From: Alphaproteobacteria bacterium
Lineage (GTDB): Bacteria; Pseudomonadota; Alphaproteobacteria; Caulobacterales; Hyphomonadaceae
Length of the DNA: 64,000 nt
Assembly (NCBI GenBank): GCA_018830285.1
Contig: JAHJSB010000029.1
Span: 62,001 to 126,000 of the forward strand
Direction: 5' to 3'
Part shown: positions 23,077 to 41,499 of the stretch, piece after piece
Position numbering within the stretch: position 1 is the stretch's first letter
How the letters are laid out: every line of letters begins with the position of its first letter
The notes under the pieces: model-generated
Told to the model about the DNA's origin: nothing
The model's input: only the letters and a program-made list of their open reading frames with translations
The model's database searches: none
Translations under genes and position numbers: made by a program

Positions 23077-23186
23077 GCACACAACGGGCGTCAGGGGTAC
23101 GCATTTTCCACTCCCACTATCGCGCGACCGCTTCAAGCGCCATGGTCACATGGCATGGGTTGGAACTTGCCATTCAGCAGTGCTAG

Positions 23187-25697: not shown

Positions 25698-26002
25698 TTC
25701 CAGGAGTTGCGGCCGCCCGGACGATTGCATCGCTCGCCCGGGCGGGCAGATCCCGTCCGGGCGCGAGAGACTTGGCCTTGTAATCATAACGCGGTAGGAG
25801 AAAGGTCAATGCTCGGGTGACAGCGTGCAAGCGTTCCTGCATTGGCTCATTCTGGAAAAAGCGTCATCGACCTGAGGCGATCGCGCGTCGGAAACAGAGG
25901 CTGAAACGTCAAAAACACGGATCTTGTAGCGTGGCTGAAAAGAGAACTGACAGGCCTGGGCCCTGCAATGGACGACCTGACACGCGAGCAGGGGCTGCGC
26001 AG
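25698..26002. other. 305-nt gap before gspH
   Basis: It contains an imperfect GC-rich inverted repeat around 25711-25765 (GCCCGGAC / GTCCGGGC units), which could end the glycosyltransferase transcript. It also has a very good ribosome-binding site (GTAGGAG, 25794-25800) followed at 25809 by a three-codon frame ATG-CTC-GGG-TGA. The gspH frame is open from GTG 25817, but the translated stretch before 26003 looks non-coding (many Cys/Arg). Confidence 0.5.
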
Positions 26003-26455
26003 GTGCCGCAAGGGCGCGCTTTCATCCTGTCCTGCGGGATCAAGCCTGCCCAAACGCGCGGTACGGACGCCGGGTTCTCACTCCTGGAGATGACCGTGGC
26101 CCTCTTCCTGGGCGCCCTCTTGCTGACGCTGGTGGCCGAATCAGGCGTATCCATGCTTGATCGCTGGCAGCTGTCCATTGCCGAACGAAACCTGCGCAAC
26201 CAGATCAGCGCGCTACCGCTGAAAGCGCATGCTTCGCGGCGGGCCTTTACCCTTGACCAGGCGATTGGATCGGATGTCATACTGCCGGAAGGCTGGGCGA
26301 TTTTGGCCGATGACGAAATATTCTATGCCGATTCCGGCATCTGCAGCGGTGGAGCCGTGGAAATCCGATCCCCGCAAGACCGGGTCTGGCGCTATCGCCT
26401 GGAAGCGCCGTTCTGCCGGGCTAGGTCAGGGTCGGGTGTGCCCCGGCAAGGCTGA
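26003..26455 (+). CDS. gspH: Type II secretion pseudopilin, GspH-like
   Basis: About 150 aa. A GTG at 26003 is preferred: AGGGG lies 8 nt upstream and gives a 24-residue leader before the prepilin motif 'DAGFSLLEMTVALFLGALLLTLVAESG' (cleavage after G, methylated F, E at +5). The open frame extends to 25817 but would give an implausible 86-residue leader. The body (C-terminal 'AILADDEIFYADSGICSGGAVEIRSP') fits a minor pseudopilin of GspH type, by length and exclusion since G, I, J and K are assigned elsewhere. It overlaps the convergent sulfotransferase by 35 nt. Inner membrane and periplasm. Confidence 0.65.
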   Translation: MPQGRAFILSCGIKPAQTRGTDAGFSLLEMTVALFLGALLLTLVAESGVSMLDRWQLSIAERNLRNQISALPLKAHASRRAFTLDQAIGSDVILPEGWAILADDEIFYADSGICSGGAVEIRSPQDRVWRYRLEAPFCRARSGSGVPRQG

Positions 26456-27143
26456 GGGCCTCCAGCTGGCTCCAGACAGATGCACACTGTTCCGGGACCT
26501 GCATGTCTGCGGTGTCATTGTGAATCAGTTCGGCACTGTAGAAGCTGACGGCTGCGCCTGCATCCAGTCCAAGTCCTGAGGCGATATCAGCAACCGAAGA
26601 CTGGTACTGGTCCGGCCGGCAATCGTACCTGATGCATGGCACAGCTGCGTCCCGCACAAGGGCCAGAATTTGCGTATTATAAGCGCTCCAGAGATCGATA
26701 GCCGTCTCGCGGGTCATTGGTTGTTTCCACGCCAGCGACCTGTTGACGAGGCTCGCCGCAACCGCTTCCGGGTGGCGAAAGGTGACGACCATTCGCGGCG
26801 CGAACAGTGACTGCCAGCCCGCCATGCAGAACACCGTCCTTGGATCCTTCAATCCCCAGAAGGCTTCGCCGCGCAAGGCTTCGGTCTCGAGACTGAGAGC
26901 ATCCAGGTCCTCGCTGCGCCAGGCCAGCTGTCCTGCCGGCGGCTTGTCCCAGCTGTAACCGTGAAACGCCAGGAGCCGGTCATGGATGCTGCGTATGCGC
27001 TCGTGTTCCCGGTTGCCTTTCCTGTTGAAAGGCGCCGACGTATTGACATCGCCGAGCGTCAGTCCGCCGGCCTCCAGGCATCCGGCGAGACAGGAGGTGC
27101 CCGATCTGTGCATTCCGAGAATCAGGAGTGGCGACAGGTTCAT
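26421..27143 (-). CDS. Sulfotransferase family protein coupled to gspE
   Basis: 240 aa. The N-terminal P-loop for PAPS is 'LLILGMHRSGTSCLAGCLEAGG', with 'FWGLKDPRTVFCMAGW' and 'RMVVTFRHPEAVAASLVNR' as the 3'-phosphate-binding segments. 'YDCRPDQYQSSVADIASGLGL' is the typical C-terminal part. It resembles the N-terminal domain of the giant fusion at 12.4 kb. The start codon overlaps the gspE stop (ATGA), so the two are translationally coupled. A cytoplasmic enzyme that would sulfate a glycan or protein with PAPS from CysD/CysNC. Target unknown. Confidence 0.82.
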   Translation of the reverse strand: MNLSPLLILGMHRSGTSCLAGCLEAGGLTLGDVNTSAPFNRKGNREHERIRSIHDRLLAFHGYSWDKPPAGQLAWRSEDLDALSLETEALRGEAFWGLKDPRTVFCMAGWQSLFAPRMVVTFRHPEAVAASLVNRSLAWKQPMTRETAIDLWSAYNTQILALVRDAAVPCIRYDCRPDQYQSSVADIASGLGLDAGAAVSFYSAELIHNDTADMQVPEQCASVWSQLEALSLAGAHPTLT

Positions 27144-28891
27144 GCCAGCGCTTCTTCAGTACGCGCGCCCACCACGCGGACGACTTCTTCAACTGAGGTA
27201 AGGCCTCTTCTCGCCTTTATCAGCCCGTCTTCCATCAATGTCTGGAACCCTTTCCTGCGCGCGGCCGCCACGATTTCACTCATCGGCGCCTTTCGCGTGA
27301 TCGCGCCCTGCATGTCCGCATCGACCAGCGCGACCTCGAACAGGCCGAGGCGATCTAAATATCCTGATTGATTGCATGCCGGGCATCCATTCGGCGCTCT
27401 CCAGTCAGGCGTCTCGGCCATGATGGCCGAAAGGTCGGCCCCATCCCGGATCGCAGTTGCCATTAATTGTTCGCCGAGGCTGTTGCTGCCGGCAGGCAGG
27501 GCGCAATGGCGGCAAAGGCGCCTGACCAGCCGCTGCGCGGCGAATGCCCTGACGGATGAAGCAATCAGGAAAGGCTCAAGCCCGAGATCCATGAGGCGTT
27601 CGATCGCGCCGAGCGCTGAATTCGTGTGAAGGGTCGAAAGTACAAGGTGGCCGGTGAGGGCAGCTCGTGCCGCAATTTCGGCCGTCTCCCCGTCGCGGAT
27701 CTCTCCGACCATGACGATATCCGGGTCGTGCCGGAGGATGGCTCTCAGGCCCCGCGCAAAGGTGTATCCGATATCTGCCCGGATCTGAACCTGGGTAATA
27801 TTGGCCATGTTGTATTCGACCGGGTCTTCGACCGTTATGATCTTGCGAAGGCCATCATTGAGGTCTTCCAACATCCTGTAGAGCGTTGTCGACTTTCCCG
27901 ATCCGGTCGGACCCGTGACGAGGATGACGCCATTGTGAAACTGCCGCGCTGCATCGAATGCCCGGGCCGGCTGGCCGCCGAGGCCAAGACCCACAAGGTC
28001 TGGCAGGGACTTTTCCTTTCGCAGCAAGCGCAGAACAAGGCTCTCGCCCCAGGTTCCGGGCAGGGACGAAACCCGCAGGTCGAGGTTTTCACCGCCCAGC
28101 CTGACAGACTGGCGACCATCCTGGGGCAGCCTCTGCTCGGCAATATCCATGCCGCTCAGGAGCTTGATCCGGCTTGCGATTGCGTTGAATTTCCCGCGCG
28201 GATGAGTGGCCAGCGTCGAAAGGATGCCGTCCACTCTCAATCGCACTTCGAAGGCGTGCTCGTAGGGTTCGATATGAATGTCGGACGCATTGCGCTTCAG
28301 GGAGGCTTCGAAAAGCCTGTTGACGAAGTCGATGACGGGAGCTTCCTGCGCCATTTCCTTGAGACGCTGCATGCTGACATCGTCGCCGCCCAGATCGACG
28401 GCATCGTCGATCCCCATGGCCGACTGGAGCTGTTCAATCTGGATACGGGTTGCGAGGCGATAGCACAGCCTGTCCGGCTTGTTGTCCGGAACGGCCTCGG
28501 CGATCGCCGCCTCGAGGGTTTCACGCAGTTCAGGTTGAAGCGGATGCAGGCTGGCGACGAACAGCGTCCGGGCGTCCCCGGTTGCCGTCCACAGGACGGC
28601 GCTTTGGGCGTTCAGCCAGCGGGGCGTCAGTGCCAGCATCCTGGCTGCGTCGCTGATCTGGTGTGTCGCGTCAGGAATTTCCTCCTGGCGAAGCAGGTCG
28701 ACACCCATCTGGTCTGCCAGCACGACGACCAGGTCATCTTCCGACAAGGCGCCGATCTTGATAAGGGTCTCTCCGAGATAGCCACCGATTTCGAACTGGG
28801 CCGCGATAGCCTGGTCCACGTCGCCAGTGGTCACCAGGCCCCTGGCGACGAGCAGTTCTCCGATACGCTTTTCGATCATTTCTTGAGGCAA
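27140..28891 (-). CDS. gspE: Type II secretion ATPase GspE
   Basis: 583 aa (579 if ATG 28879 is used instead of TTG 28891). It has an N-terminal GspE/PilB-type domain ('GELLVARGLVTTGDVDQAIAAQFEIGGYLGETLIKIGALS'), then the ATPase: Walker A GPTGSGKSTTLYRML, Asp box 'KIITVEDPVEYNM', Walker B 'DIVMVGEIRDGETAEIAARAALTGHLVLSTLHTN'. The zinc tetracysteine CRHC...CPAC follows. It energises pseudopilus assembly at the inner membrane. Divergent from gspF across 82 nt, and coupled to a downstream sulfotransferase. Confidence 0.93.
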   Translation of the reverse strand: MPQEMIEKRIGELLVARGLVTTGDVDQAIAAQFEIGGYLGETLIKIGALSEDDLVVVLADQMGVDLLRQEEIPDATHQISDAARMLALTPRWLNAQSAVLWTATGDARTLFVASLHPLQPELRETLEAAIAEAVPDNKPDRLCYRLATRIQIEQLQSAMGIDDAVDLGGDDVSMQRLKEMAQEAPVIDFVNRLFEASLKRNASDIHIEPYEHAFEVRLRVDGILSTLATHPRGKFNAIASRIKLLSGMDIAEQRLPQDGRQSVRLGGENLDLRVSSLPGTWGESLVLRLLRKEKSLPDLVGLGLGGQPARAFDAARQFHNGVILVTGPTGSGKSTTLYRMLEDLNDGLRKIITVEDPVEYNMANITQVQIRADIGYTFARGLRAILRHDPDIVMVGEIRDGETAEIAARAALTGHLVLSTLHTNSALGAIERLMDLGLEPFLIASSVRAFAAQRLVRRLCRHCALPAGSNSLGEQLMATAIRDGADLSAIMAETPDWRAPNGCPACNQSGYLDRLGLFEVALVDADMQGAITRKAPMSEIVAAARRKGFQTLMEDGLIKARRGLTSVEEVVRVVGARTEEALA

Positions 28892-28973
28892 CTCTGTCGC
28901 AGCTTGCTGATAGTGGGGCTGTCATACTAAAACATGACCGGGTGAGCGAGACAAATCGGAACGGGAGTCACTA

Positions 28974-30170
28974 TTGGCCAACTTTAAATTCAGCGCGCTG
29001 GACAGCCTCGGTCAGAACGTGCGCGGCCAGGTCGAGGCCCGCGATGAAAGCAGTGCCTTTTCCACGCTGATTGCCCGTGGCCTGAGCCCGATCTCCGTTC
29101 AGGCGCGGGGGGACGGAACGGGGCTGTCGCGCCTGAAGAGTATCCGCCCCAAGGACCTTGCCATGATGACGCGCCAGATTGCCGTGCTCCTGTCGGCCGG
29201 CATCAGCCTGACCGAAACCATGTCGAGCCTGGCGAACGGATCGTCGCATCCGGCGCTGGCCGAGCGGGCCGGACGGGTGCGTTCCGGCCTGCGGGCGGGT
29301 GAGCCCTTCTCGAAATGCCTCGCACGCGAATTTCCGACCCTTCCGCCTTACGTGCCGCAACTGGCCGAACTTGGCGAAGCCACGGGGCGCCTCGGGCCGG
29401 CCCTGATGGAAGCGGCCGACCAGTATGATTATGATCAGGAAATTGCCAGTGAAGTCCGCTCGGCCCTGACCTATCCGCTATTCCTGCTTGGCGCGGGCTC
29501 GCTCATTGTCGGCATCATGTTCGTCTTCGTGGTCCCGCGCTTTGCAGACCTCGTGACGCAATCCAATGCGTCTGTTCCAACCATTTCGCGCTGGGTGATC
29601 GGGTTTTCGATGTGGTTCAGTACAAACTGGTTGCTGGCATTGGTCGGCGCAGCGCTTCTGGGAGCCGCTGGCGTCTGGGCGGTGCGCTCCATGCAGGGCG
29701 GCCTCGCAGGCGTCGCCGAGCACATTCCCGTCATCAGGAAGTACCAGGCCGTCAGCACGCTGGCGCGCTGGTGCCGCATACTCGGGGGCGCCCTGCAGCA
29801 GGGATCGGGCATTCTGCCGGCGCTGGAGCTCGCTGAGCGGGGCGTCAATGCTCCCCAGCTTCGCGCCGGGCTTGTCGCTGCGCGCTCTTCGGTTCGCAGT
29901 GGCGAGGGTCTTGATGAGGCCATTGCCCGCAACCTGCCAGAATTTGACAGCGTCGCCATCGACATGATCCGGACCGGACGCACGTCCGGCCAGCTCGCCG
30001 ACATGATGATTTTTGCGGCCGAAATCTATCGGCGCGAAACACAGGAACGCACGAAAAAACTGACCGCGCTGGTAGAACCGCTGGCGATTGTGTCGATTTC
30101 GCTTATTGTCGGCACGATCGTTATCAGCATTGTTCTTGCCATGACCAGCCTCTACGAGATTGCCCCATGA
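28974..30170 (+). CDS. gspF: Type II secretion inner-membrane platform protein GspF
   Basis: 398 aa, TTG start with GGGAG 7 nt upstream. Two T2SSF repeats are visible: 'MMTRQIAVLLSAGISLTETMSSLA' at about 60-85 and 'LARWCRILGGALQQGSGILPALELAERG' at about 263-290. Three membrane spans occur at about 165-190, 215-240 and 372-392. It begins with 'ANFKFSALDSLGQNVRGQVEARDE', a typical GspF opening. It organises the pseudopilus platform with GspE, L and M. The stop overlaps the gspG start (ATGA). Confidence 0.93.
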   Translation: MANFKFSALDSLGQNVRGQVEARDESSAFSTLIARGLSPISVQARGDGTGLSRLKSIRPKDLAMMTRQIAVLLSAGISLTETMSSLANGSSHPALAERAGRVRSGLRAGEPFSKCLAREFPTLPPYVPQLAELGEATGRLGPALMEAADQYDYDQEIASEVRSALTYPLFLLGAGSLIVGIMFVFVVPRFADLVTQSNASVPTISRWVIGFSMWFSTNWLLALVGAALLGAAGVWAVRSMQGGLAGVAEHIPVIRKYQAVSTLARWCRILGGALQQGSGILPALELAERGVNAPQLRAGLVAARSSVRSGEGLDEAIARNLPEFDSVAIDMIRTGRTSGQLADMMIFAAEIYRRETQERTKKLTALVEPLAIVSISLIVGTIVISIVLAMTSLYEIAP

Positions 30171-30661
30171 CCCATTCACGCGTCGCAAAAGACGAAAAAG
30201 CACCAACCGCCGTCAAGGAGGGCCGGGATGACGGGTTCTCCCTGCTTGAAATGCTCGTGGTCCTCGCGATAATGGGCATTATCGCCGCAATGGTTGCCCC
30301 CCGCCTGTTCAACCAGGTCGACAAGTCGAAGCAGACGGTCGCAGAAGCGCAGACGAAAGCCCTGATAACGGCGCTTTCGACGATGCGGCTTGATATCGGA
30401 CGCTATCCCACGGCCGACGAGTCGCTCAATCTGCTCATCCAGCGCCCGACGGACCCGGCAGCGGCGGCAACGTGGTATGGCCCTTACATGGACGATGGCC
30501 TGCCAACCGATCCCTGGGGGCAGCCTTACCGCTATACGCCGCCACTGAAGGATGCCGGAGGCCTCGATCGCACCCCGTTTGTCTATTCGCTGGGCGCCGA
30601 CCAGCAACCTGGAGGCAGCGGACTGGACACAGACATCGGCCGCGTGCCATCTGGACCATGA
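30167..30661 (+). CDS. gspG: Major pseudopilin GspG
   Basis: 164 aa. A 22-residue leader ends at the cleavage motif 'DDGFSLLEMLVVLAIMGIIAAMVAPRLF', with Glu at +5. The GspG C-terminal signature 'GPYMDDGLPTDPWGQPYRYTPP' and 'FVYSLGADQQPGGSGLDTDIG' (calcium loop region) are present, which distinguishes it from the minor pseudopilins. It is translationally coupled to gspF. After processing by a prepilin peptidase (gspO is not in this window) it forms the periplasmic pseudopilus. Confidence 0.93.
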   Translation: MTHSRVAKDEKAPTAVKEGRDDGFSLLEMLVVLAIMGIIAAMVAPRLFNQVDKSKQTVAEAQTKALITALSTMRLDIGRYPTADESLNLLIQRPTDPAAAATWYGPYMDDGLPTDPWGQPYRYTPPLKDAGGLDRTPFVYSLGADQQPGGSGLDTDIGRVPSGP

Positions 30662-30740
30662 GGGTCGCCATTCGCCAAAAGCCCTGATAATTCTCGCCAA
30701 TTCCGTCACTGGCGGCCCGGCTTAACCGAAGAACCCGCTC

Positions 30741-32978
30741 ATGCCTGTACAGTCAAAACACCTCCAACGCGCGCTTCTTGCTGCCAGATGGGCCAGCGTG
30801 TCGATCCTGCTCGTCCTGCCAGCCTGCTCCAACACCTCTGCGCGCCGTCCTGATCCCATGGCAGGGGCAATCCGGGTTGATCCGGGTGCAAACCCCTACA
30901 AGGTGACGGACCCGGGCGCTCTGCAGGCAATTTCCGGGAAAAACCCACAGCCGAGACAGGCCCAGGACGGATCCAGGGAATTTTCTGTTCCTTCGATTGC
31001 AACCTCATCGGAAGCAGAAGGACCGCAATCCGGTTCCAGGCCGCCTGCGCCTCACACGAAGACGGTCGATGCCGCCGTCCAGGAGCTCCCGCTTCCCGAT
31101 TTCATCGATACCGTGTTTGGGCAGATGCTCCAGGTGCCATACTATACCGGTCCCGGGGTCGCTGATCGCAAGGACGTCATTATCAAGTTGCGCACCTCTG
31201 GCGAGCTGAAATCGACCGATTTTCTTGCGCTCGTATCGGGCGCACTGACAGAGTATGGCGTATCGGTCGTCGCTGAAGACGGCGTCTACAAGATACTTGA
31301 TGATGTCTCACTTCGCGCGAGGATACCGCGATTCGTCAGATCCAGGTCGGCTCCGGACACGCCGAGCGCACTGCGCCCGCTCGTGATGTTCGTCGAGCTT
31401 GATGCGATCTCGGCGGCGGACATGGCAACAATCCTCAAGCAGGCTTTCCCGGACAAGTCACGCCTGACGATCGAACCGAACCAGGCGATCAATGTGCTGA
31501 CATTGAACGGCCTGCCTGAAGATGTCGAAGCGGCGCTGAACATCATCGATGAAATGGACGAGCTTGCCTATGCCGGCACCGAACTGCTGCGTTACTCGCC
31601 AGACTATGTCGGCGCCAAGGAACTGGCAGAGCAGATGGCGAGGCTGCTGACGATTGAAGGGTGGCAATCGAGTTCAAACCCCAGCATCCAGAGAACCATC
31701 GTGACAATCCCGGTCGAGTTCACGAACGACCTGTTCGTGTTCTCCAAGAGCCCGGTTGCGCTTGAGCGCGCGCGGTTCTGGCTCAACGAACTCGACAAGC
31801 CCGCCAAGACCGGCGATGTGGCGCAATTGTTTGTCTATTCAGTCCAGAATGTTGACGCTGAAACACTGGCCAATACGGTGAATGCTGTCCTTTCTGGCGG
31901 GAAAGGCGGAACTCGTCGCGGCACAGGACAGGATGGCAGTGATGGTGCCGGCCTCAACGGCCAGGGGGCCGGGCTCGCCTCTCCGGTGGCAGGCAGCCTC
32001 AGCGGAGGGAATATCCCGGGCGCGCTGGTCGTCGATGTCATCTCCAATCGCCTGATCTATTCAGGCGCATCTTCTGACTATGCCCGCCTCAAGCCGCTGC
32101 TTGAGCAACTCGACCGGCCACCGGGCGAGGTGCTCATCCTGGTGACAATTGCGGAAATAACCCTGACGGACGAGACCCAGTACGGCCTTGAATTCTTCGT
32201 CGACAGTATCGGGAACGCGGATTTCAGGGCAACGACAGGTACGTCTGGCCTCGGCCTCGGCTCGTCGGGCCTGAACGTTGGCGTTTTCTCGGGTAATGTC
32301 GAGGTTGCGCTCAATGCGTTTGCGTCGAACTCGCAGGTCAACGTCCTGTCAAAACCCAAACTGATTGCCCGGTCGGGCGGAGCGGCCCGGCTCCAGGTCG
32401 GCACCGACGTTCCCGTCATCACATCCCAAAGGGCCGCCTCCGCCCAGGACGGGGACGGTGTGACCGATGTCCTGCAGCAGGTCGAGTACCGCAAGACCGG
32501 CGTGCTCCTGTCGATCGAGCCGATCATTTTCAGTGAAAACAGGGTCGACCTGACCATTTCGCAGGAAGTTTCCACAGCCCTTCCAAACAATGCCTCGGCC
32601 ATTGCGAGCCCGACAATTTCCAACCGGACGCTGGACACACAATTGTCTATCCAGGATGGAGAAACCGTCGTCCTTGGCGGCCTGATCCAGACGACTACGA
32701 CAGACGGCGAGACGGGTATTCCATTCCTCAAGGACGTTCCGATTGCGGGCAACCTCTTCCGGAACAATTCGATCAGCCAGACGCGTACGGAACTCCTGGT
32801 CCTGATCACAGCCTATATCCTCAAGGACACGGATGAAAAAGCCGGGTTTACCAATAAACTGGTCGACGAACTCGACCGATCGAGCAGGGCAACCGACAAT
32901 ATGAAAACCCTGCTTCGCCCCCGTCCCCGGCCCGTCACGCCTGAACCGGGCAGCAAGGCACCCGCAACGAACCGATGA
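30741..32978 (+). CDS. gspD: Type II secretion secretin GspD
   Basis: 745 aa. The N-terminus carries a lipobox-like signal (ILLVLPACSN), so it may be a self-piloting lipoprotein secretin. N0/N1-type modules follow ('LPLPDFIDTVFGQMLQVPYYTG', 'VMFVELDAISAADMATILKQAFPD', 'LTIEPNQAINVLTLNGLPEDVEAALNIIDEMD'). The secretin core has 'VLSKPKLIARSGGAARLQVGTDVPV' and 'LDTQLSIQDGETVVLGGLIQTTTTDGETGIPFLKDVPIAGNLF'. It forms the outer-membrane gate. It lies 79 nt after gspG, and its stop overlaps the gspI start (ATGA). Confidence 0.93.
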   Translation: MPVQSKHLQRALLAARWASVSILLVLPACSNTSARRPDPMAGAIRVDPGANPYKVTDPGALQAISGKNPQPRQAQDGSREFSVPSIATSSEAEGPQSGSRPPAPHTKTVDAAVQELPLPDFIDTVFGQMLQVPYYTGPGVADRKDVIIKLRTSGELKSTDFLALVSGALTEYGVSVVAEDGVYKILDDVSLRARIPRFVRSRSAPDTPSALRPLVMFVELDAISAADMATILKQAFPDKSRLTIEPNQAINVLTLNGLPEDVEAALNIIDEMDELAYAGTELLRYSPDYVGAKELAEQMARLLTIEGWQSSSNPSIQRTIVTIPVEFTNDLFVFSKSPVALERARFWLNELDKPAKTGDVAQLFVYSVQNVDAETLANTVNAVLSGGKGGTRRGTGQDGSDGAGLNGQGAGLASPVAGSLSGGNIPGALVVDVISNRLIYSGASSDYARLKPLLEQLDRPPGEVLILVTIAEITLTDETQYGLEFFVDSIGNADFRATTGTSGLGLGSSGLNVGVFSGNVEVALNAFASNSQVNVLSKPKLIARSGGAARLQVGTDVPVITSQRAASAQDGDGVTDVLQQVEYRKTGVLLSIEPIIFSENRVDLTISQEVSTALPNNASAIASPTISNRTLDTQLSIQDGETVVLGGLIQTTTTDGETGIPFLKDVPIAGNLFRNNSISQTRTELLVLITAYILKDTDEKAGFTNKLVDELDRSSRATDNMKTLLRPRPRPVTPEPGSKAPATNR

Positions 32979-33418
32979 CCGGGACGACGCTTGAGCCAGG
33001 TATAGACAGTGAAGCGGGGTTTTCCCTGCTCGAGACGATCGCTGCCCTGGCCATCCTGTCGATGGCGCTTGTGCCCCTGCTTGCATTACAGTTCCAGCTC
33101 GCGTCGGGCGCGGCAAGGCTTGAGCAGCAGAGCGAGTTGTCACGCGCCGTGTCGGTCGCGCGTGTCATGCTCTCGGCGACGAACCCGGTCATTGAACCTG
33201 AGGGCCGCCGCGATCTTGGCGGCGGCTGGCAGGTCGGCTGGACATCGCAGCCACTGGGTCCGCCCGAAGCGGCCCGGTACGGCCTCGGCGTGAGTTCCCG
33301 CTATCGGATGCAGGTCTTCCGCGTGACCGCAGACGTGATCGACCAGGACAACCGGACAAGTCCGCTGTCACTGCAGACGCTCGGCTGGGTCGAAACCGCC
33401 CCCTTTGGATATGAGTAG
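32975..33418 (+). CDS. gspI: Type II secretion minor pseudopilin, GspI-like
   Basis: 147 aa. A 14-residue leader precedes the prepilin motif 'EAGFSLLETIAALAILSMALVPLLALQFQ' (Glu at +5). 'ARVMLSATNPVIEPEGRRDLGGGWQVGWTSQP' and 'YRMQVFRVTADV' fit the GspI globular domain ('A..G....G...W'). The start overlaps the gspD stop. It is the last gene of the gspF-G-D-I unit; 254 nt then separate it from the secreted-protein gene. Confidence 0.82.
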   Translation: MTGTTLEPGIDSEAGFSLLETIAALAILSMALVPLLALQFQLASGAARLEQQSELSRAVSVARVMLSATNPVIEPEGRRDLGGGWQVGWTSQPLGPPEAARYGLGVSSRYRMQVFRVTADVIDQDNRTSPLSLQTLGWVETAPFGYE

Positions 33419-33546
33419 CGCAATAAAATTGCGCAGATCCATTATTCCGGCGACTGAAATCTCGACAAAGCGTGGGTAAAAATACAACAGAGCCTGAATT
33501 CTTGGATCAAATCCCGCCATTACGAAAAACTGTCATCAACCGTCGC

Positions 33547-33576
33547 TTGACACACCAGAGGGGGGAATCCTAAGGT
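33547..33576 (+). promoter_or_regulatory. Candidate sigma-70-type promoter of the secreted-protein gene
   Basis: TTGACA at 33547-33552 is followed after 18 nt by TAAGGT (33571-33576). The -35 box is perfect, the -10 weak. It lies about 95 nt upstream of the start codon in an otherwise gene-free 254-nt gap. Confidence 0.5.
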
Positions 33577-33619
33577 CATCTCGCGCGGCTGGGATTCGCC
33601 AATCGCAGCGAACCATAGT

Positions 33620-33639
33620 CTCGCCGAATGTCCGGCGAG
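33620..33639 (+). promoter_or_regulatory. Hairpin in the 5' leader of the secreted-protein gene
   Basis: CTCGCCG / CGGCGAG form a perfect 7-bp stem with a 6-nt loop, without a following T-tract. It lies 33 nt before the ATG. A leader hairpin of this kind can protect an abundant mRNA; that role is inference. Confidence 0.5.
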
Positions 33640-33672
33640 GCCTAGTTTAGCTTCCTTAGTAGGGGAATTTAT

Positions 33673-35169: not shown

Positions 35170-35195
35170 GCCCCAATTCGTCTAAGATAATTTGG

Positions 35196-35225
35196 AAGGG
35201 GCGGCCTCTTGGCCGCCCCTTTTTT
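35196..35225 (+). terminator. Strong Rho-independent terminator
   Basis: An 11-bp stem (35196-35206 with 35211-35221), TCTT loop and a T-tract. It lies 26 nt after the secreted-protein stop and should isolate that gene from the downstream sulfotransferase. Confidence 0.93.
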
Positions 35226-35275
35226 GTTGTCATCAAGGCGTTTGAGAACGCGCAACTTGCCTGTAGGATTGAGCG

Positions 35276-36070
35276 ATGATGACGACAGCCGACCTGACAC
35301 TTGATTTTGCCATTGCAGGTGTCCAGAAGGCCGGCACCACGGCTCTTGCGCAATATCTGGGACAAAACCCTGAAATCTACCTGCCGCCGACAAAGGAAAC
35401 ACATTATTTTCGCCGGGCACCCACAGCCGGCCGACCGGCCGACCGGCCTTTCTCCCACCTGACACGGCACTTTGCCGACGCTCCGCAGGGCGCATTGCTG
35501 GGCGACGCGACACCGGTTTATCTCTATTGGCCAAATGCGCTTGAGCTACTCCAGGCCCACAACCAGGCGCTTCGTATCGTGATCAGCCTGCGCCACCCGG
35601 TTGCCCGCGCCTATTCGGCCTGGTCGATGCAGGTAAGGCGCGGACGCGAGACGCTGTCGTTCGGCGAGGCCATCCGGGACGGTCGCGAACGGGTCAGGCA
35701 ATCGCCCTTTGGCGTTGACCTTTTCTATTCCTATGTGGAGCGCGGTTTCTATTCCAATCAGATGGCCCGCCTGTACTCACTATTCCCAAAGGCCCAGGTA
35801 TTCGTACTCCGCAGCGATGACATCCGCGCTGACAGTCCTGTCCTGGGCAATCTCCAGTCCTTTCTCGGAGCGGCGCCATGCCGCCTGACACCGCTCGTCC
35901 ACAACGTCCAGCCGGGCAGCCTGCCAGCCCCTCCAGGCCTCGCCGCTGACTTTGAATACCTGCAAGGCGTTTTCGAAAAGGATATGCATGAAACAGCAAT
36001 CCTGACAGGTCTTGACCTGGCCGACTGGATGGCGTGTCCACCACCCGTTCCTGAGCTTGACCTGTTGTGA
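35276..36070 (+). CDS. Sulfotransferase coupled to gspJ
   Basis: 264 aa, ATG with AGGA 7 nt upstream. The PAPS 5'-phosphosulfate loop is 'FAIAGVQKAGTTALAQYLGQNPEIYLP', followed by 'KETHYF', and the 3'-phosphate site 'RIVISLRHPVARAYSAWSMQVRRGRETLSF'. These are hallmarks of heparan/N-sulfotransferase-like PF00685 proteins. 'GFYSNQMARLYSLFPKAQVFVLRSDDI' is equally typical. Its stop overlaps the gspJ start (GTGA), placing a sulfation enzyme inside a secretion operon. Cytoplasmic; the acceptor could be a glycan or the neighbouring secreted protein's glycan, but that is open. Confidence 0.9.
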   Translation: MMTTADLTLDFAIAGVQKAGTTALAQYLGQNPEIYLPPTKETHYFRRAPTAGRPADRPFSHLTRHFADAPQGALLGDATPVYLYWPNALELLQAHNQALRIVISLRHPVARAYSAWSMQVRRGRETLSFGEAIRDGRERVRQSPFGVDLFYSYVERGFYSNQMARLYSLFPKAQVFVLRSDDIRADSPVLGNLQSFLGAAPCRLTPLVHNVQPGSLPAPPGLAADFEYLQGVFEKDMHETAILTGLDLADWMACPPPVPELDLL

Positions 36071-36690
36071 ATAGGGTTGATCGATCTGACCAGGGTTTCA
36101 GCCTTATGGAGATGCTGGTCGCGCTGGCGATACTCTCCATCTCCGCAGTGCTGATCTTCCAGTCACTGCTGGCGCAATCGGCACTGACGGCGAGGATCGA
36201 AACCCTGTCGCTGGAAGCAGGCAGGGACGCAATCCGGCGCGCCGGGTTTACTGAGGTCGTGGGGGGCATCTTGCCGTCCTGGCCGGAAGAGGAGGAGACA
36301 GCCTTTATCGCGACTGACCGGCAATTGAGCGGCCTGTCGAGCCGGGCCCTTGCGACAACATCGGAAGGCTTGACGGCTTTCCGTTTCGACCTTTCAGGGT
36401 CTCCCTCGGAACTCGTCTATTCTTCAGGTGGACAACAGGTCCAGCTCGGCACGTTTTCCGAGGACGCAACCTTCTCCTATCTCGGCGCGGACGGGAACTG
36501 GTACGATAAATGGCCGCCTGAAAAGACACCCGATTTTGGTCCTTTTGATGACTCAGGCTCGTATCGCACGCCGCCGCTCCCGGTCGCGGTTCGCATCCAG
36601 ACAGCCACCCGCGCCGACCTCGACTGGATCGCCAAACTTGAATGGCAGGCTCCCCTGATGGCCCGCCGGCAGGACCTGGACCTTGAATAG
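36067..36690 (+). CDS. gspJ: Type II secretion minor pseudopilin, GspJ-like
   Basis: 207 aa, GTG start in a GTGA overlap with the sulfotransferase stop. A 9-residue leader precedes 'DQGFSLMEMLVALAILSISAVLIFQSLL', with Glu at +5. The length (about 200 aa) and 'FRFDLSGSPSELVYSSGGQQ', 'ATFSYLGADGNWYDKWPPEK' and 'LPVAVRIQTATR' fit GspJ, the largest of the H/I/J pseudopilins. It converges with the sulfatase gene. Confidence 0.82.
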   Translation: MNRVDRSDQGFSLMEMLVALAILSISAVLIFQSLLAQSALTARIETLSLEAGRDAIRRAGFTEVVGGILPSWPEEEETAFIATDRQLSGLSSRALATTSEGLTAFRFDLSGSPSELVYSSGGQQVQLGTFSEDATFSYLGADGNWYDKWPPEKTPDFGPFDDSGSYRTPPLPVAVRIQTATRADLDWIAKLEWQAPLMARRQDLDLE

Positions 36691-36739
36691 GGTCTCCGGG
36701 TCGTGCTGGACGAACGCAATCGCGCGGCACGCCCCTGTC

Positions 36740-36755
36740 ATTCCCTGCAGGGAAT
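36740..36755. repeat. Perfect 16-nt palindrome between gspJ and the sulfatase gene
   Basis: ATTCCCTGCAGGGAAT lies in the 128-nt convergent gap. There is no loop and no T-tract, so it is not a typical terminator; it could be a binding site or chance. Confidence 0.5.
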
Positions 36756-36818
36756 CATCACCGGGCCGCCTGCAACGCCGCCCCACCCCCTGCCCTCATC
36801 TGGACGTTTGGGTGGTCT

Positions 36819-38357
36819 TCATTGGGTTTCGCTGGCGCACCGGGAGGCCAGACCGGCAAGATGTGACCGGTAGGGATCAGGAGAAAATGTCGTATGCTTC
36901 TGAGGTTCAGAAGCATGCAACCTGGTAATCTCTTCCAACATGAAACCAACACGGGAAAGATCGGCGCTGCATGTCGACACGAGCAGGTTGCTCGTTTCAC
37001 CAGGATCACGGGCCGTGTCGTAGAACTCCATGAGCACATCCCCGGCATATCCGGTCGGCCGCACGGGATCGCGCAGGATGAGCTTGAAGCCGGCGGCGTC
37101 GACAAGTCCGTACGCGAATGGCATCATGGCGAGGTTTCCGCGCTCGACATAGGCAAAGTCCCGTTTCCCCGGACGATCGGTGTCTTTGAGTATGCCGGCG
37201 AAACTGACACTGTCGAGGGTCCGGCCTGAGCCTTCGCTCGCCGCAATTCGAGATCCTGTCAGCTCAGAAATCGTGAGAAACAAATCACTCAGATGAACGA
37301 GCGCATCGCTGCGTCCTGTTTCCACGGCGCCATTCCCATCATGGCTCGACCATATCTGGACGGGGACACGTATGCCGCCCTCGTAAAGACTTGCCTTGGC
37401 GCGATAGCCGGCAGAGCCTGGTCCGCGATACACTTCGGCTGCCGATCCGTTATCTCCAAGGAAAATGTATATGATCGGCCGGGTCGCGACCTCATCCATC
37501 CTGGTGACCAGTCGCTCGATCTCGTTGTCAAGCGCTTCAAGCATCGCGTTGTATTGCCTGTCGAGCCGCGGTTCTCGCCGGTTGGCGTGATATTCGTCCG
37601 GGCCGGGCTGCCTTTTCGAGATTTCCCTGAGCATTGTGCCGGAAAGATCGCCCTGTGAGTGCAGCGCTGACGGGGGGATATGATAGGGCTTATGGGGGTT
37701 GGTAAAACTCACCCAATAGAGGCTTGGCCTCGATGACGGGGACGAGATGAAATTTTCGATGACCGCGTCGACAATCCGCGTTGTCCGGTAGGTCGACTGG
37801 TTACCGACAGATACGCCATTGCGCATCCAGTCGTAATCATAGAAGCGATAGGTATCATGCTGGCGCGGTGTGCCTTCGAAGATATCAAACCCCTGGAGTC
37901 CAGGATTGTGTTCTGCGCCATTCTCATCGTCGGCCAGGTGCCATTTGCCGAACGCACCCATGATATAATTGCCCGGACTGTTCGCCCTGACACGTTCTGC
38001 AAGCGTCTCCTCGTCCAGTGAGAGCTTGCGCGCTGATTGCCTGACATCGCCGGTCCCGGTGCGAAACGGATGACGGCCCGTCATCAGGCTGGCGCGACTT
38101 GGTGTACATACCGGGTGCGCATAGGCCCGGTCAAACACCAGGGACGCCTCACACCGTGCAGCGAGATGTTTCATAACGCTGTCAGGGTCATGACAGGGCG
38201 CGACATCCAGGCCGAGATCATCAGCAATCAACAGGACAATCGTCGGATAGTCCCTCTCATTGTCGGGCAGCGCTTGTTGCGTACAGGCCGGAAGCAGGGC
38301 CACCACCAAACCGATGGCAATCCTGCCAGGCAAGTTGCGCATCGATTGCGGTTTCAT
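36819..38357 (-). CDS. Sulfatase lipoprotein coupled to gspC-like gene
   Basis: 512 aa. It has a signal peptide with lipobox (LLPAC, Cys25). The sulfatase core is unmistakable: 'IVLLIADDLGLDV' (metal ligands D46, D47), then HPVCTPSRASLMTGRHPFRTG with Cys84 in C-x-P-S-R, the residue converted to formylglycine by the aerobic maturase. 'GAFGKWHLADDENGAEHNPGLQGF' and 'FLGDNGSAAEVYRGPGSAGYRAKASLYEGGIRVP' are further active-site stretches. It would hydrolyse sulfate esters at the envelope. The ATG overlaps the gspC-like stop (ATGA), so it ends the gspK-L-M-C operon. No formylglycine-generating enzyme is in the window. Confidence 0.93.
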   Translation of the reverse strand: MKPQSMRNLPGRIAIGLVVALLPACTQQALPDNERDYPTIVLLIADDLGLDVAPCHDPDSVMKHLAARCEASLVFDRAYAHPVCTPSRASLMTGRHPFRTGTGDVRQSARKLSLDEETLAERVRANSPGNYIMGAFGKWHLADDENGAEHNPGLQGFDIFEGTPRQHDTYRFYDYDWMRNGVSVGNQSTYRTTRIVDAVIENFISSPSSRPSLYWVSFTNPHKPYHIPPSALHSQGDLSGTMLREISKRQPGPDEYHANRREPRLDRQYNAMLEALDNEIERLVTRMDEVATRPIIYIFLGDNGSAAEVYRGPGSAGYRAKASLYEGGIRVPVQIWSSHDGNGAVETGRSDALVHLSDLFLTISELTGSRIAASEGSGRTLDSVSFAGILKDTDRPGKRDFAYVERGNLAMMPFAYGLVDAAGFKLILRDPVRPTGYAGDVLMEFYDTARDPGETSNLLVSTCSADLSRVGFMLEEITRLHASEPQKHTTFSPDPYRSHLAGLASRCASETQ

Positions 38358-38830
38358 GCAGGTGGTTCACTCGCCGTCAGATCGAAAACCTCAATAATTC
38401 CATCTTGTTCTGCGACCACCTTGTCGAGCGTGATCTCCCGGATGATCCAGTCTCCCGGCAGCGTGTCATTGGCGCCGGCATTCAGGATCGCACCATCGGG
38501 CATGCGGATCTGGAGCTTGTATTCTCCATCAATTTTCGCCGCTGACAGGATGGGTGGAAATGCTGCCTGGCCTGGTTCATCTGTATCGGTGACCTCGCCG
38601 TCTGGTGTCACGCTTTGATCGGAATAGGGTTGCGGGAAAAGCTTGCTCCCAAACAAATCCTGCAGGAACCGGTCCTTGGAGACAGAATAATCGATCGGCA
38701 GGGATTGCGGGACCCATTGCGCCGCGATCCCGCTCGCTGCGGCATCAGCCGAGCGCGATCCGGACACGAATCCGAGCGCGGCGCCGATGCCTGCCAGCGC
38801 GAGCAGCAAGATAAGGAACGACCTGTTCAA
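38354..38830 (-). CDS. GspC-like inner-membrane T2SS protein
   Basis: 158 aa. TTG start overlapping the gspM stop (TTGA), with GGAGG 7 nt upstream. One N-terminal membrane span ('SFLILLLALAGIGAALGFVSG') is followed by a periplasmic region ending in an HR-like module: 'FPPILSAAKIDGEYKLQIRMPDGAILNAGANDTLPGDWIIREITLDKVVAEQDGIIEVFDL'. The pattern (G-D-x-I/L...I..D.V....G) resembles the GspC/PulC homology region that contacts the secretin. It lacks a PDZ or coiled-coil C-terminus. It could instead be a short GspN/GspP type component. Its place after gspK-L-M supports a T2SS role. Confidence 0.6.
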   Translation of the reverse strand: MNRSFLILLLALAGIGAALGFVSGSRSADAAASGIAAQWVPQSLPIDYSVSKDRFLQDLFGSKLFPQPYSDQSVTPDGEVTDTDEPGQAAFPPILSAAKIDGEYKLQIRMPDGAILNAGANDTLPGDWIIREITLDKVVAEQDGIIEVFDLTASEPPA

Positions 38831-39414
38831 GGCGCTTCCTCCAAAACAGCGTCGCTGGGCAGGTAGGGCAGGTAACCGCCGAGCGAGAGGCGCGTTCGCT
38901 GCTTGTCCCTGAGGGGCGCTGAAACCTCGGTTATGATGAAAGACTTGCTAGCGGTCGATAGTTCGACAAGCAGTGACATCAGGACATGGGAATCGCCAAC
39001 ACCGGCAATTTCATATCGCAGCAGATCTTCAGAGCCGACCCTGACAGGATCACTCGACACCGATAGTTTGACGCTTTCCAGCCCTGTCTTGGCAAGAAGG
39101 GCCGCGGCGGCAGCCTGCGCTTCGGCCGAGGCGATGCCAGGCGTTGCACCGCGCCATCGACGCTCGATCCATGCCTCGCGCGCAATTCTCGCCTGCTCGG
39201 CGCGTTCCTTCCAAAGATCAACACCGTCTGTCTGGGACACGAGGGCAAGTTCGCTTCTGGCCGCCGACACATCGGCCTCGGCTGCTTTCCTGGCATCATG
39301 CAATTGCAGAAGCCCGTAACCGAGCCCCAAAGCAAGGAAAGCCGAAAGGCCGTAAGCCAGGCGCGGTGTCATCTGCGCCGCGAGTGCGGCCTGAATATCC
39401 TTTAAACGGCTCAT
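38827..39414 (-). CDS. GspM-like T2SS inner-membrane protein
   Basis: About 195 aa from ATG 39414, which overlaps the gspL stop as ATGA; the frame extends to 39501 but that would lie inside gspL. It has an N-terminal cytoplasmic stub, a membrane span ('LAYGLSAFLALGLGYGLLQL'), a coiled segment, and a C-terminal alpha/beta ferredoxin-like part ('VLMSLLVELSTASKSFIITEVSAPL'), the GspM/PilO layout. Sequence identity with known GspM is low; the call rests on topology and position between gspL and the gspC-like gene. Confidence 0.65.
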   Translation of the reverse strand: MSRLKDIQAALAAQMTPRLAYGLSAFLALGLGYGLLQLHDARKAAEADVSAARSELALVSQTDGVDLWKERAEQARIAREAWIERRWRGATPGIASAEAQAAAAALLAKTGLESVKLSVSSDPVRVGSEDLLRYEIAGVGDSHVLMSLLVELSTASKSFIITEVSAPLRDKQRTRLSLGGYLPYLPSDAVLEEAP

Positions 39415-40502
39415 TGCGCTGGCACCGTGTCCGGGCGCGCGCCGGTTTCGACCTTCCCGACGATCTGGCGAGTCGCCGGATCGTAGCGGACCCGCGTCCA
39501 ACTGGCACTCTGTTCGAGACCTGAAACCATGGAAACGACATTCTGTGTTTCGGAAGACTGGAGGGTGACGCGCAATTCGCCGTCAAGGTATTCAATCCGT
39601 TCGACCGGCGATGTAACTGACGCAAGGGCCGAATCAAGATCCATCAATGCGAACACGAGCGAGACCGGGTCACCGGGCGCTGACATATCAGAGACGAGCT
39701 TCTGATCGGCCAGAGCCTGGCGCCGAAGGTTCAGCCAGGGCTCTGCAGCGACCCGTTGTTTTGTCAACGCTGCCTGGATCGAAGACCTTTCCTGGACCAG
39801 GCGCGCATATTGCGTCGCTTCACAGCCGGCTGGAACCGCAGCAAGGGCGAGGACCGTCATCGCCAGTTGCAACGGCCCGATCGATTGCAGCCGGTCATTC
39901 AGGTCACGCCGCACCCAGAAGATATTCGTGTTCCATTGAGCCGGTTCAGGCTCGGGCATGGAAAATGCCAGCGGGTTGCCATCTATATCGACCGGCCAGT
40001 CGCGCGACCTGGCGCCTGCAATGAACTGGTTCCAGTCATCCACGCCCGGCCGCTGGGCCCACCATCTCGAAGCGATGCAGGTTTCATTCAACCAGATTTC
40101 CCCGTCATAGCCCTCGCTGGCTTCAACGATACGCGCCCCGTTGGCCAGAGGACGTCGCGCGAGCGGCTCCGGGATGACACGCGCGCGACGTGTGCCCGTG
40201 AGCGCCTCGATGGCATTCCTGTCCCAACTCCAGATCGACGCTTCTGTCGGCCGCGGTCCCGGTGTCCGGACCGTGACAAGGAAGTCCGGATCGCGGTATC
40301 GCGATTCAAATGCGGCCTGCGCGAGCGCGGCACGCCGGCCCTTCTGGTCTCCACGAGGAATCTTGCGCCGCGCATGGGTAAAATACCGGTTCGGCAAAAC
40401 AACGATACGCCCGAGCAATCTCGGCCCTGGCAGCAATGCCACGGGTCGGTCATCGCTATCGGGAATCCATAGCTGCGGAAAAAATAGACTGAAGAGGGGC
40501 AT
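39411..40502 (-). CDS. GspL-like T2SS assembly platform protein
   Basis: About 363 aa from ATG 40502 (the frame is open to 40688 inside gspK). An actin-like cytoplasmic part comes first (about 1-220, low conservation), then a membrane-proximal 'LQLAMTVLALAAVPAGCEATQYARLV' and a periplasmic part with 'LDLDSALASVTSPVERIEYLDGELRVTLQSSETQNVVSMVSGLE', the ferredoxin-like domain typical of GspL. It overlaps gspK by 47 nt and gspM by 4 nt. It bridges GspE to the periplasmic machinery. The call depends partly on gene order. Confidence 0.65.
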   Translation of the reverse strand: MPLFSLFFPQLWIPDSDDRPVALLPGPRLLGRIVVLPNRYFTHARRKIPRGDQKGRRAALAQAAFESRYRDPDFLVTVRTPGPRPTEASIWSWDRNAIEALTGTRRARVIPEPLARRPLANGARIVEASEGYDGEIWLNETCIASRWWAQRPGVDDWNQFIAGARSRDWPVDIDGNPLAFSMPEPEPAQWNTNIFWVRRDLNDRLQSIGPLQLAMTVLALAAVPAGCEATQYARLVQERSSIQAALTKQRVAAEPWLNLRRQALADQKLVSDMSAPGDPVSLVFALMDLDSALASVTSPVERIEYLDGELRVTLQSSETQNVVSMVSGLEQSASWTRVRYDPATRQIVGKVETGARPDTVPAQ

Positions 40503-41493
40503 GGCGTTCTGCTGGGTCTCCGGTGCCGGCGGGTACGGGGTATTCCGCAACGCAGCGCCTGGTAAAGGGTTGATCTGCCGCTCCTGCGGTTCTCTCAATT
40601 TCGACGACCCTGCGCAACCCGAAGCGCGCGTTGGGCGAAGTCGCGGTAAGAACAAACTGAGCCCGTTCGCTCGGAAAACGGCTGTCAATCAGCTGGGTTT
40701 CCACCAGATCGTCCGAATATCCGGTGAGATTCCCAGTAAAAGCCGACAATATGGGCAGGAGCTGCACCGGAATGCCTGCTTTGCGGGGCATGCCTGATGT
40801 CGCAAAGAGCGTCGTATACATGAACGCTTCCCTGTCCAGTGATCGCTTCTGGGCAAAGCCGAATATGTGCCCGATCTCCTCGAAACTCCTGAGATTGGAA
40901 TTGGAGGGAGGCGAAAGGCGCGCCAATCGGTAATCGGCGCGCTCAGCCCCAAGAAACTGCCGCATCGAATCTGCATCCCGATAGTCGGCTATCCGGGCTG
41001 ACAGGATGCGCGCCTCTTCGCCATCGCCGATGACCGACTTCAGCCAGGCAGTCAGGACCGGCAAATCGGCCGAGTTCAGGGAGATCAGCCCGTCGGCGTC
41101 CTGATAGGCGATTTCGACGACATTATCCCCGATCACAGCTTGCCGGACCCCGCCTGTCGCCGACCATATGTCGGCCTGATCAAGACCTTCCTCGCTGAGT
41201 GGTTCACCCATCATCAGCTCCGCTTCGTCCACGGGACGGTTTGACAGGTCCAGGCCAGCGCTCACCATGGGCCGTGTCAGGAAGACATGGGTTGCTCCGG
41301 CTTCAGCTTCATCGAGCGCCCAGACGAGCGTATTGCGATCTGCCATTTCTCCAATCGCGCCCTGGCTTCGCATCAAGGCTTCTGCGCCAAGTGCCGTCAA
41401 CAGGGACAAAATGGCAACCACAGCCAGAACATAGGGGAGTACGAACCCTGACTCCTTCGTATCTGGCAACCGCCGGGCATGGAACGACAACAT
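40456..41493 (-). CDS. gspK: Type II secretion minor pseudopilin GspK
   Basis: About 345 aa. ATG 41493 is preferred over 41499, because the AGGA motif lies just before and overlaps the latter. The leader ends at 'ESGFVLPYVLAVVAILSLLTALGAEAL', in which the usual Glu at +5 is not in place; this is normal for GspK. The inserted alpha domain is present: 'YQDADGLISLNSADLPVLTAWLK', 'ARIADYRDADS', 'FEEIGHIFGF', and 'YTTLFATSG'. It is a pseudopilus tip subunit with GspI and GspJ, and the first gene of the minus-strand K-L-M-C-sulfatase unit. Confidence 0.88.
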   Translation of the reverse strand: MLSFHARRLPDTKESGFVLPYVLAVVAILSLLTALGAEALMRSQGAIGEMADRNTLVWALDEAEAGATHVFLTRPMVSAGLDLSNRPVDEAELMMGEPLSEEGLDQADIWSATGGVRQAVIGDNVVEIAYQDADGLISLNSADLPVLTAWLKSVIGDGEEARILSARIADYRDADSMRQFLGAERADYRLARLSPPSNSNLRSFEEIGHIFGFAQKRSLDREAFMYTTLFATSGMPRKAGIPVQLLPILSAFTGNLTGYSDDLVETQLIDSRFPSERAQFVLTATSPNARFGLRRVVEIERTAGAADQPFTRRCVAEYPVPAGTGDPAERHAPLQSIFSAAMDSR

Positions 41494-41499
41494 GATCAT

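Follow-up and report, generated by a model that had tools for sequence, protein, structure and literature searches.

The window analysed here is the whole 64,000-nt stretch at positions 62,001 to 126,000 of contig JAHJSB010000029.1 (C23 in our set) from a member of the Hyphomonadaceae, and belongs to a genome of 3.56 Mb (G000). It contains a type II secretion system (T2SS) locus in which genes for two sulfotransferases (ST1 and ST2), a sulfatase and a secreted protein of 498 residues, here called S498, stand among the gsp genes (Table 1). Gene calls were based on Pfam and NCBIfam model matches, and these bear out the original prediction, made from the letters of the window, that the T2SS is complete apart from a prepilin peptidase, none of which was seen among the window open reading frames (ORFs) scanned, a subset of all ORFs. 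GspD, GspE, GspF and GspG provide the core set of secretin, ATPase, inner-membrane platform and major pseudopilin, and the minor pseudopilins I, J, K and H-like are also present.

Relatives were drawn from a sample of 398 Caulobacterales genomes, in which the T2SS subtype of the window was defined by GspD relatives at E ≤ 1e-70. The subtype occurs in 53 of the 398 genomes and in 21 of 59 genera; together with two genomes from a family search these make up the 55 subtype genomes studied, each over about ±10 kb around gspD, with some loci cut by contig ends. The GspJ-, GspC/PilP-, GspL- and GspM-like families are present in 42, 44, 37 and 32 of the 55 loci, respectively, and homologues of the GspH-like pseudopilin adjoin the T2SS in relatives. 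The C-, L- and M-like parts, which were assigned from this recurrence and from weak model matches (the GspM-like protein has no credible match to any public model), are divergent. GspE (496.5 bits; cut-off 630) and GspD miss the NCBIfam equivalog cut-offs, which GspG passes, yet their best models are those of GspE and GspD, so the system represents a divergent T2SS subtype. Residues 9-61 of GspE match the MshE-related cyclic di-GMP (c-di-GMP) motif model NF053729 at 46.4 bits, above the cut-off of 38, so this T2SS may answer to c-di-GMP.

The sulfotransferases and the lipoprotein sulfatase of the original prediction are likewise supported, by matches to PF13469, PF00685 and PF00884 and by the lipobox and CTPSR site of the sulfatase, C-x-P-S-R being the formylglycine-site motif of type I sulfatases. 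In the family alignments of both ST1 and ST2, the motifs of the 3'-phosphoadenosine-5'-phosphosulfate (PAPS) site, named the 5'-PSB loop and 3'-PB, are kept (in the nine rows for ST1, GMHRSGTS and RHP are invariant), and by motif the two proteins are probably PAPS-dependent sulfotransferases. The sulfatase looks intact, and two FGE-family matches elsewhere in the genome indicate that its maturation enzyme family is encoded. The three start/stop overlaps that had been reported for these genes read as claimed, with TCAT (ATGA on the minus strand) at 27140-27143 and 38354-38357, and GTGA at 36067-36070. Of the 34 pairs of co-directional neighbours that were called in the window, 6 have an overlap of exactly 4 nt; all six are in the T2SS locus, and three of them join T2SS genes only (F-G, D-I and C-M). 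Such overlaps are thus usual within this locus, and were rejected as evidence in themselves.

Three features had been overlooked by the original prediction: S498, the role of the glycosyltransferase gene at 24555 (GT24), and the sulfate-activation genes at 60787-63597. The first of the latter is read as CysD because CysNC comes next. The flanks of the locus consist of surface-glycan genes, encoding WbsX-type and other glycosyltransferases, a pyruvyltransferase and methyltransferases.

Table 1. Features of the T2SS locus and its surroundings, in window coordinates.
Feature	Position	Strand	Match or remark
GspH-like pseudopilin ORF	25817..26455	+	Type IV leader from about 26069; true start uncertain; N_methyl E 1.5e-4
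ST1, small PAPS-type sulfotransferase	26421..27143	-	Sulfotransfer_3 PF13469 E 9.4e-4, below Pfam cut-off; overlaps gspE by 4 nt
GspE ATPase	27140..28891	-	T2SSE 415 bits; MshE-like c-di-GMP motif at N terminus
GspF	28974..30170	+	T2SSF 170 bits
GspG major pseudopilin	30167..30661	+	TIGR01710 145 bits, above equivalog cut-off
GspD secretin	30741..32978	+	Secretin and Secretin_N; TIGR02517 296 bits, below cut-off 351
GspI-like minor pseudopilin	32975..33418	+	XpsI E 1.5e-4; GspI E 1e-3
S498, 498 aa	33673..35169	+	Sec-type signal, acidic, all-beta; between gspI-like gene and ST2
ST2 sulfotransferase	35276..36070	+	PF00685/PF13469 above cut-off; 3' of S498; 4-nt overlap with gspJ-like start
GspJ-like minor pseudopilin	36067..36690	+	N_methyl 31 bits; GspJ E 2.8e-3
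Lipoprotein sulfatase, type I	36819..38357	-	PF00884 102 bits; lipobox; CTPSR site
GspC/PilP-like small protein	38354..38830	-	PilP family E 9e-4, below cut-off
GspM-like	38827..39414 (ORF open to 39501)	-	Position and family only
GspL-like	39411..40502 (ORF open to 40688)	-	GspL E 0.063
GspK-like minor pseudopilin	40456..41499	-	PF21687 T2SSK_1st E 1.1e-4, 23.4 bits, cut-off 26.2
GT24, GT2-type glycosyltransferase	24555..25697	+	Glycos_transf_2 31.6 bits; recurring ST1 partner
Polysaccharide pyruvyltransferase	11081-12193		Flank gene
Giant fused WbsX-type protein	12368-18184		1938-aa frame: Sulfotransfer_3 (first domain), coiled-coil-like stretch, WbsX, GT4, GT2
WbsX-GT4-GT2 relative	19666-23136	Opposite to 12368-18184	1156 aa
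CysD-type sulfate adenylyltransferase small subunit	60787..61689	+	PF01507 194 bits; PAPS supply
CysNC, sulfate adenylyltransferase/APS kinase	61690..63597	+	NF004035 1046 bits, above cut-off; PAPS supply

S498 and its occurrence with the T2SS subtype

S498 consists to 58% of T, S, V, A, G and N, carries a net charge of -38 and has two Cys residues; neither it nor five relatives match any Pfam family. An AlphaFold2 model built with 23 sequences depicts a row of Ig-like beta sandwiches (mean pLDDT 67.8, about 90 at residues 370-460). The closest structural neighbours of the model are Ig-like surface proteins, including adhesins and pilins, and no surface-layer (S-layer) entry is found among the best 50 of 772 structural matches. 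No homologous sequence was found in the PDB (best E 0.22). S-layer proteins of the RsaA type are exported by type I secretion, have an RTX-type C terminus and lack a Sec signal; S498 shows no RTX or other Pfam match and instead has an N-terminal Sec-like signal.

With a profile threshold of E ≤ 1e-10, S498 was found in 26 of the 398 genomes, and all 26 are among the 53 with the T2SS subtype (hypergeometric 2e-26, relatedness ignored). Since the profile was built from T2SS-linked members, distant unlinked members could be missed. The co-occurrence is also seen within genera (two genomes of the genus of the window, and one of genus g3). Of the 55 subtype loci, 27 have S498 no more than 10 kb from gspD, versus none of 12 control loci with T2SSs of another type from the same family, hand-picked from 19 secretin loci of roughly 30% identity. 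S498 stands away from gspD, with the T2SS still present, in G333, G355 and G382, which belong to one genus; a fourth genome of that genus (G297) has only S498 fragments, on other contigs. Usually there is a single S498 gene per locus (two in G262). Its bearers include Hyphomonas, Henriciella, Ponticaulis, Marinicauda/Oceanicaulis/Maricaulis, Robiginitomaculum, Parvularculaceae and Brevundimonas.

The C-terminal domain of S498 was also observed elsewhere. In a Maricaulis genome (G218, L203:11199-14813, minus strand), a 1204-aa subtilase, two genes from a flagellin-like gene, carries four such domains in tandem, so the domain may serve more widely as a surface or sorting module. S498-profile fragments of like kind match frames of 1000-1200 aa in G278 and G325. 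No S498 domain was found in the subtilase of the window itself (51796-54282).

Linkage of the sulfotransferase and sulfatase genes

Sulfotransferases were counted as matches to PF13469 (Sulfotransfer_3) at E ≤ 1e-3, several of which may fall in one gene. The 55 subtype genomes hold 268 matches, of which 40 share a contig with the subtype gspD at a distance of at most 15 kb, where approximately 2.6 would be expected; these occur in 24 of the 55 genomes, spanning 12 of 22 genera and four of five families. The figures for 10 kb (32 matches in 20 genomes; 1.8 expected) and for 20 kb (47 matches in 25 genomes; 3.5 expected) are similar. Contig C1 of G276 has the same locus near both ends (L097/L098), probably through an untrimmed assembly end overlap, and was counted once in the 15-kb tally. 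For the 12 control genomes 37 matches were listed, a single one of which is less than 10 kb from the control gspD (9.8 kb, in G028). A former control with local profiles (0/12) was discarded as biased, the profiles having been seeded from subtype loci; redone with Pfam PF13469, the comparison gave 24/55 versus 1/12. Linkage of sulfotransferases to this T2SS subtype is real but variable.

Among 44 scored genomes, S498 is present in 23 of the 24 with a nearby sulfotransferase and in 8 of the 20 without (Fisher 1e-4); the sulfotransferase state was left unscored in eight genomes with near contig ends, and the S498 state in G202. On a GspD tree, from which G310, G348, G266 and the second copy of the G276 locus were left out, the sulfotransferase state changes at least nine times and the S498 state five times.

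A search for the gene pairs of the original prediction gave mixed results. The gspE-ST1 pair is again tight in Henriciella (-1 nt) and Brevundimonas (-4 nt), compared with -4 nt in the window, and in three contig-split genomes (G202, G400 and G334) ST1 again adjoins T2SS genes; the pair of gspC and sulfatase was found in the window only. The ST1 profile matches 23 of the 398 genomes, 18 of which have the T2SS subtype, a count that shares a seeding bias with that of S498 as every row of both alignments is T2SS-linked. ST1 is recurrently accompanied by GT24 (spacing of -4 nt in Brevundimonas), for which 11 of 55 subtype loci, and none of the 12 control loci, have a homologue at most 10 kb from gspD, although the local profile used was seeded from subtype loci and the control is biased. 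Wherever ST2 occurs in a T2SS-subtype genome of the order sample (five genomes), it adjoins S498, as it also does in a Henriciella metagenome-assembled genome (MAG). It is 3' of S498 in the window, Henriciella, Robiginitomaculum and Marinicaulis, and adjoining but divergent in Brevundimonas G228.

The sulfotransferases fall into four sequence clusters at differing sites, namely ST1 next to gspE/F, ST2 next to S498, two sulfotransferases that precede gspF in the G333 group, and an Oceanicaulis/Maricaulis/Ponticaulis cluster. In genus g13 (L055, L056, L058 and L060), the region upstream of gspF holds a tight group of genes for two sulfotransferases, a GT2 enzyme and a membrane protein of the LPG_synthase_TM type (Pfam was checked in L055 only); S498 is away from that group in three of the four genomes and was not found in G392. 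Local profiles place a Wzt-like ABC ATPase near gspD in 10 of the 55 genomes, together with an adjoining membrane protein that is taken as its permease though it has no Pfam match.

For the sulfatase, the original prediction was not supported. PF00884 is present somewhere in 38 of the 55 subtype genomes, and near this gspD only in that of the window, so a conserved coupling of sulfatase and T2SS was rejected. In the syntenic Henriciella locus the sulfatase is lacking and gspJ directly abuts the gspC-like gene. The GC content of the gene (57.6%) is unremarkable for the locus. On the best reading of these comparisons, the sulfatase would be a local, locus-specific addition and desulfation would be incidental.

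The original prediction had also taken T2SS genes without sulfur-ester genes in relatives as a sign that the coupling is incidental. Such relatives exist, with all 12 genomes of family f3 as an example, and sulfotransferases recur in others; because the T2SS of some relatives lacks them, the coupling appears to follow the cargo or glycan context and not the T2SS itself. In several f3 loci (L073, L074, L084-L086, L090 and L102) a subtilase gene recurs beside the S498-less T2SS, and several of these loci also have an ECF sigma factor and SCO1/cytochrome families. The neighbours of the f3 T2SS suggest another cargo.

A proposed export system for a surface coat

Published T2SS loci of this plan carry S-layer proteins, namely Slr4 (PMC7821379), NpdA (PMC10765051) and VapA (PMC4483657), and that the cargo depends on the neighbouring T2SS has been demonstrated in Aeromonas and suggested for Slr4 and NpdA (same sources). 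The S-layer gene of Pseudoalteromonas tunicata and marine Gammaproteobacteria (PF19526; PMC7821379) adjoins the T2SS operon and encodes a beta-rich protein with a Sec signal, features shared with S498. In gammaproteobacterial loci that we fetched, the gene directly after gspD encodes Pfam Slr4 in three of three tested, and polysaccharide genes come next, as judged from sequence starts and as in the window; the gene order differs, however, and the secretins are only 27-30% identical to that of the window. The NpdA locus of Paracidovorax/Delftia resembles the window by its description, with an S-layer gene and 12 adjoining gsp genes (PMC10765051). The word sulfotransferase is absent from the Slr4 paper (PMC7821379), as is "sulfo" from the NpdA paper (PMC10765051).

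A parallel that includes a sulfotransferase-domain ORF is the VapA A-layer and Sps T2SS of Aeromonas salmonicida (PMC4483657), where a T2SS and an S-layer gene lie within an ABC-type O-antigen cluster. There the T2SS set sits between wzm and wzt, and the sulfotransferase-domain ORF19 is listed after wzt. The Aeromonas locus differs from the window in its single sulfotransferase-domain ORF and its cargo, and its authors find no such residue in the O-antigen (PMC4483657). In Luteimonas terrae (L149) we found in a row T2SS genes, a signal-peptide protein of S498-like composition and no Pfam match, Wzm/Wzt-like genes and a PF13469 protein. Within the same order as the window, the RsaA S-layer gene of Caulobacter crescentus also adjoins its exporter, but export is by type I secretion, unlike the Sec-type signal and T2SS of S498 (PMC7821379, PMC12700997). 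The Caulobacter T2SS (PMC2996285) differs in having a lipoprotein cargo under phosphate starvation, and two Caulobacter loci with long flanks (L153 and L159) contain neither S498 nor a sulfotransferase.

With moderate confidence, we favor the view that the locus encodes a T2SS dedicated to S498 as an S-layer-like coat or matrix protein and is embedded in an island of surface-glycan genes, and that either the glycan or the cargo is sulfated. The linkage, signal, composition and fold class of S498 fit the plan of Slr4, NpdA and VapA, and there is an indirect match to Slr4 (below), so S498 is likely to be a T2SS cargo and plausibly an S-layer protein. S498 would be made with a Sec signal, folded in the periplasm, and driven by the pseudopilus to exit via GspD; the c-di-GMP motif of GspE suggests a possible link between export and life on surfaces. 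ST1 (with GT24) and ST2 would use cytoplasmic PAPS to sulfate a sugar, either in a coat-holding surface glycan (O-antigen or capsule) or in a glycan that S498 itself bears, giving an acidic coat. That the target is the anchoring glycan or the cargo is a reasoned guess. The sulfatase, as a strain-level local addition, would act outside the cytoplasm.

Several results weigh against this proposal. Compared with the 1/12 controls, the sulfotransferase linkage has Fisher values of 0.09 at 10 kb (20/55) and 0.02 at 15 kb (24/55), distance limits that were chosen after looking at the data, and p values overstate the case because genomes and matches are related. There are only three independent pairs on the GspD tree, so the association of S498 with sulfotransferases is not established beyond kinship. 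Of the 34 genomes with S498, 11 have no Pfam-detected sulfotransferase near gspD (8 scored and 3 cut by contig ends), although a local profile detects an ST1-type domain in two of the 8 scored, G045 and G350. In family f3, S498 and a nearby sulfotransferase are both lacking in all 12 genomes, each of which has the T2SS (two loci are cut). The ST2 family occurs in 52 of the 398 genomes, of which only 5 have this T2SS, where 6.9 are expected, and ST2 was rejected as a genome-level companion of the T2SS on this count. ST1-GT24 pairs are also present in two genomes without this T2SS (G127 and G155), and so the pair seems to be a glycan tool in its own right.

The nature of S498 is subject to similar reservations, the structure model being of moderate confidence. 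S498 has no match to the Slr4 model PF19526, which three gammaproteobacterial proteins in the Slr4 position do match, and an initial direct homology of S498 and Slr4 (hhalign 81%) was withdrawn, the match being mostly signal peptide; the reversed alignments and 30 shuffles used initially had retained the signal peptide, which was absent from the later 40. With the signal peptide removed, core S498 compares to Slr4 at E 0.02 over the full length and 0.18 for the C terminus. A set of seven Brevundimonas-type members (four Brevundimonas, two Caulobacteraceae MAGs and one other) matches the C terminus of core S498 at E 1.9e-16 and that of Slr4 at E 1.1e-4 (score 35, versus at most 18.4 in 40 shuffles), about ten such pairings having been tried, and the longer Brevundimonas-type/Slr4 comparison gives only E 0.0024. 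Homology of S498 to Slr4 therefore appears to be only indirect, via the Brevundimonas-type members.

Of the alternatives, one that shares all but the lattice with our proposal takes S498 as a T2SS-exported adhesin or biofilm-matrix protein rather than an S-layer protein, with the sulfated glycan or cargo serving adhesion. The Ig-like adhesins and pilins that are its best structural neighbours fit this view, as does the fourfold occurrence of its C-terminal domain on the Maricaulis subtilase. We regard it as somewhat unlikely, since S498 is an acidic beta protein with mostly one gene per locus, sited like Slr4, NpdA and VapA, and has the indirect sequence link to Slr4. A second alternative is co-residence only, in which the T2SS/S498 cassette lies in glycan islands rich in sulfotransferases that modify a polysaccharide unrelated to the T2SS or its cargo. 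This would account for the polysaccharide genes of the flanks, the differing sites of the four clusters, the ST1-GT24 pairs outside this T2SS, and the 8 of 31 scored S498 loci in which Pfam detects no sulfotransferase. We nevertheless consider it unlikely, because gspE and ST1 overlap or abut in Hyphomonas, Henriciella and Brevundimonas, ST2 adjoins S498 in every subtype genome found with ST2, and of the 12 T2SS loci of another type in the same family only one has a sulfotransferase nearby.

The original prediction of a dedicated pathway, in which a product is sulfated in the cytoplasm, exported by the T2SS and remodelled outside by the linked sulfatase, is very improbable: although all the genes are present and overlapping in the window and FGE-family proteins are encoded, the sulfatase is confined to 1 of 55 loci and is absent from the syntenic Henriciella locus, so that sulfation, export and desulfation do not form a conserved pathway. 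The part that is supported is the recurrence of sulfotransferases next to this T2SS, far more often than expected, and the secreted or surface product that it proposed is refined to a likely candidate, S498.

More broadly, and returning to the proposed export of S498 as a coat, we tentatively suggest that S498 might represent a new family of T2SS-exported S-layer proteins across the Caulobacterales, unrelated to RsaA and forming a coat on or with a sulfated glycan. Sulfotransferases would then have been recurrently recruited to T2SS/S-layer loci, also in Luteimonas and Aeromonas (PMC4483657), and the C-terminal domain of S498 would be a portable surface module. A T2SS beside the gene of its own S-layer cargo is of an already known kind. 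As far as literature searches show, what is new is the cargo family, its spread in the Caulobacterales, and the repeated recruitment of sulfotransferases. In the portions of open-licence literature on Hyphomonas with type II secretion, sulfotransferase or surface layer that were available, no description of this locus was found, and in the open-licence literature sulfotransferase, S-layer protein and type II secretion come together only in the Aeromonas paper (PMC4483657).

A 2025 survey based on rsaADEF concluded that most Caulobacterales, and all families but the Caulobacteraceae, are without S-layer genes (PMC12700997). If S498 is an S-layer protein, at least 26 of the 398 sampled genomes would have a second, unrelated coat exported by a T2SS, 22 of them outside family f2 (which probably holds Brevundimonas and Caulobacter), and this would qualify the rsaA-based view that most of the order lacks S-layer potential. 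It would also open a genetic route to the use that surface layers of Gram-negative bacteria may make of sulfated surface glycans, since the T2SS, the coat and sulfation would be genetically separable.

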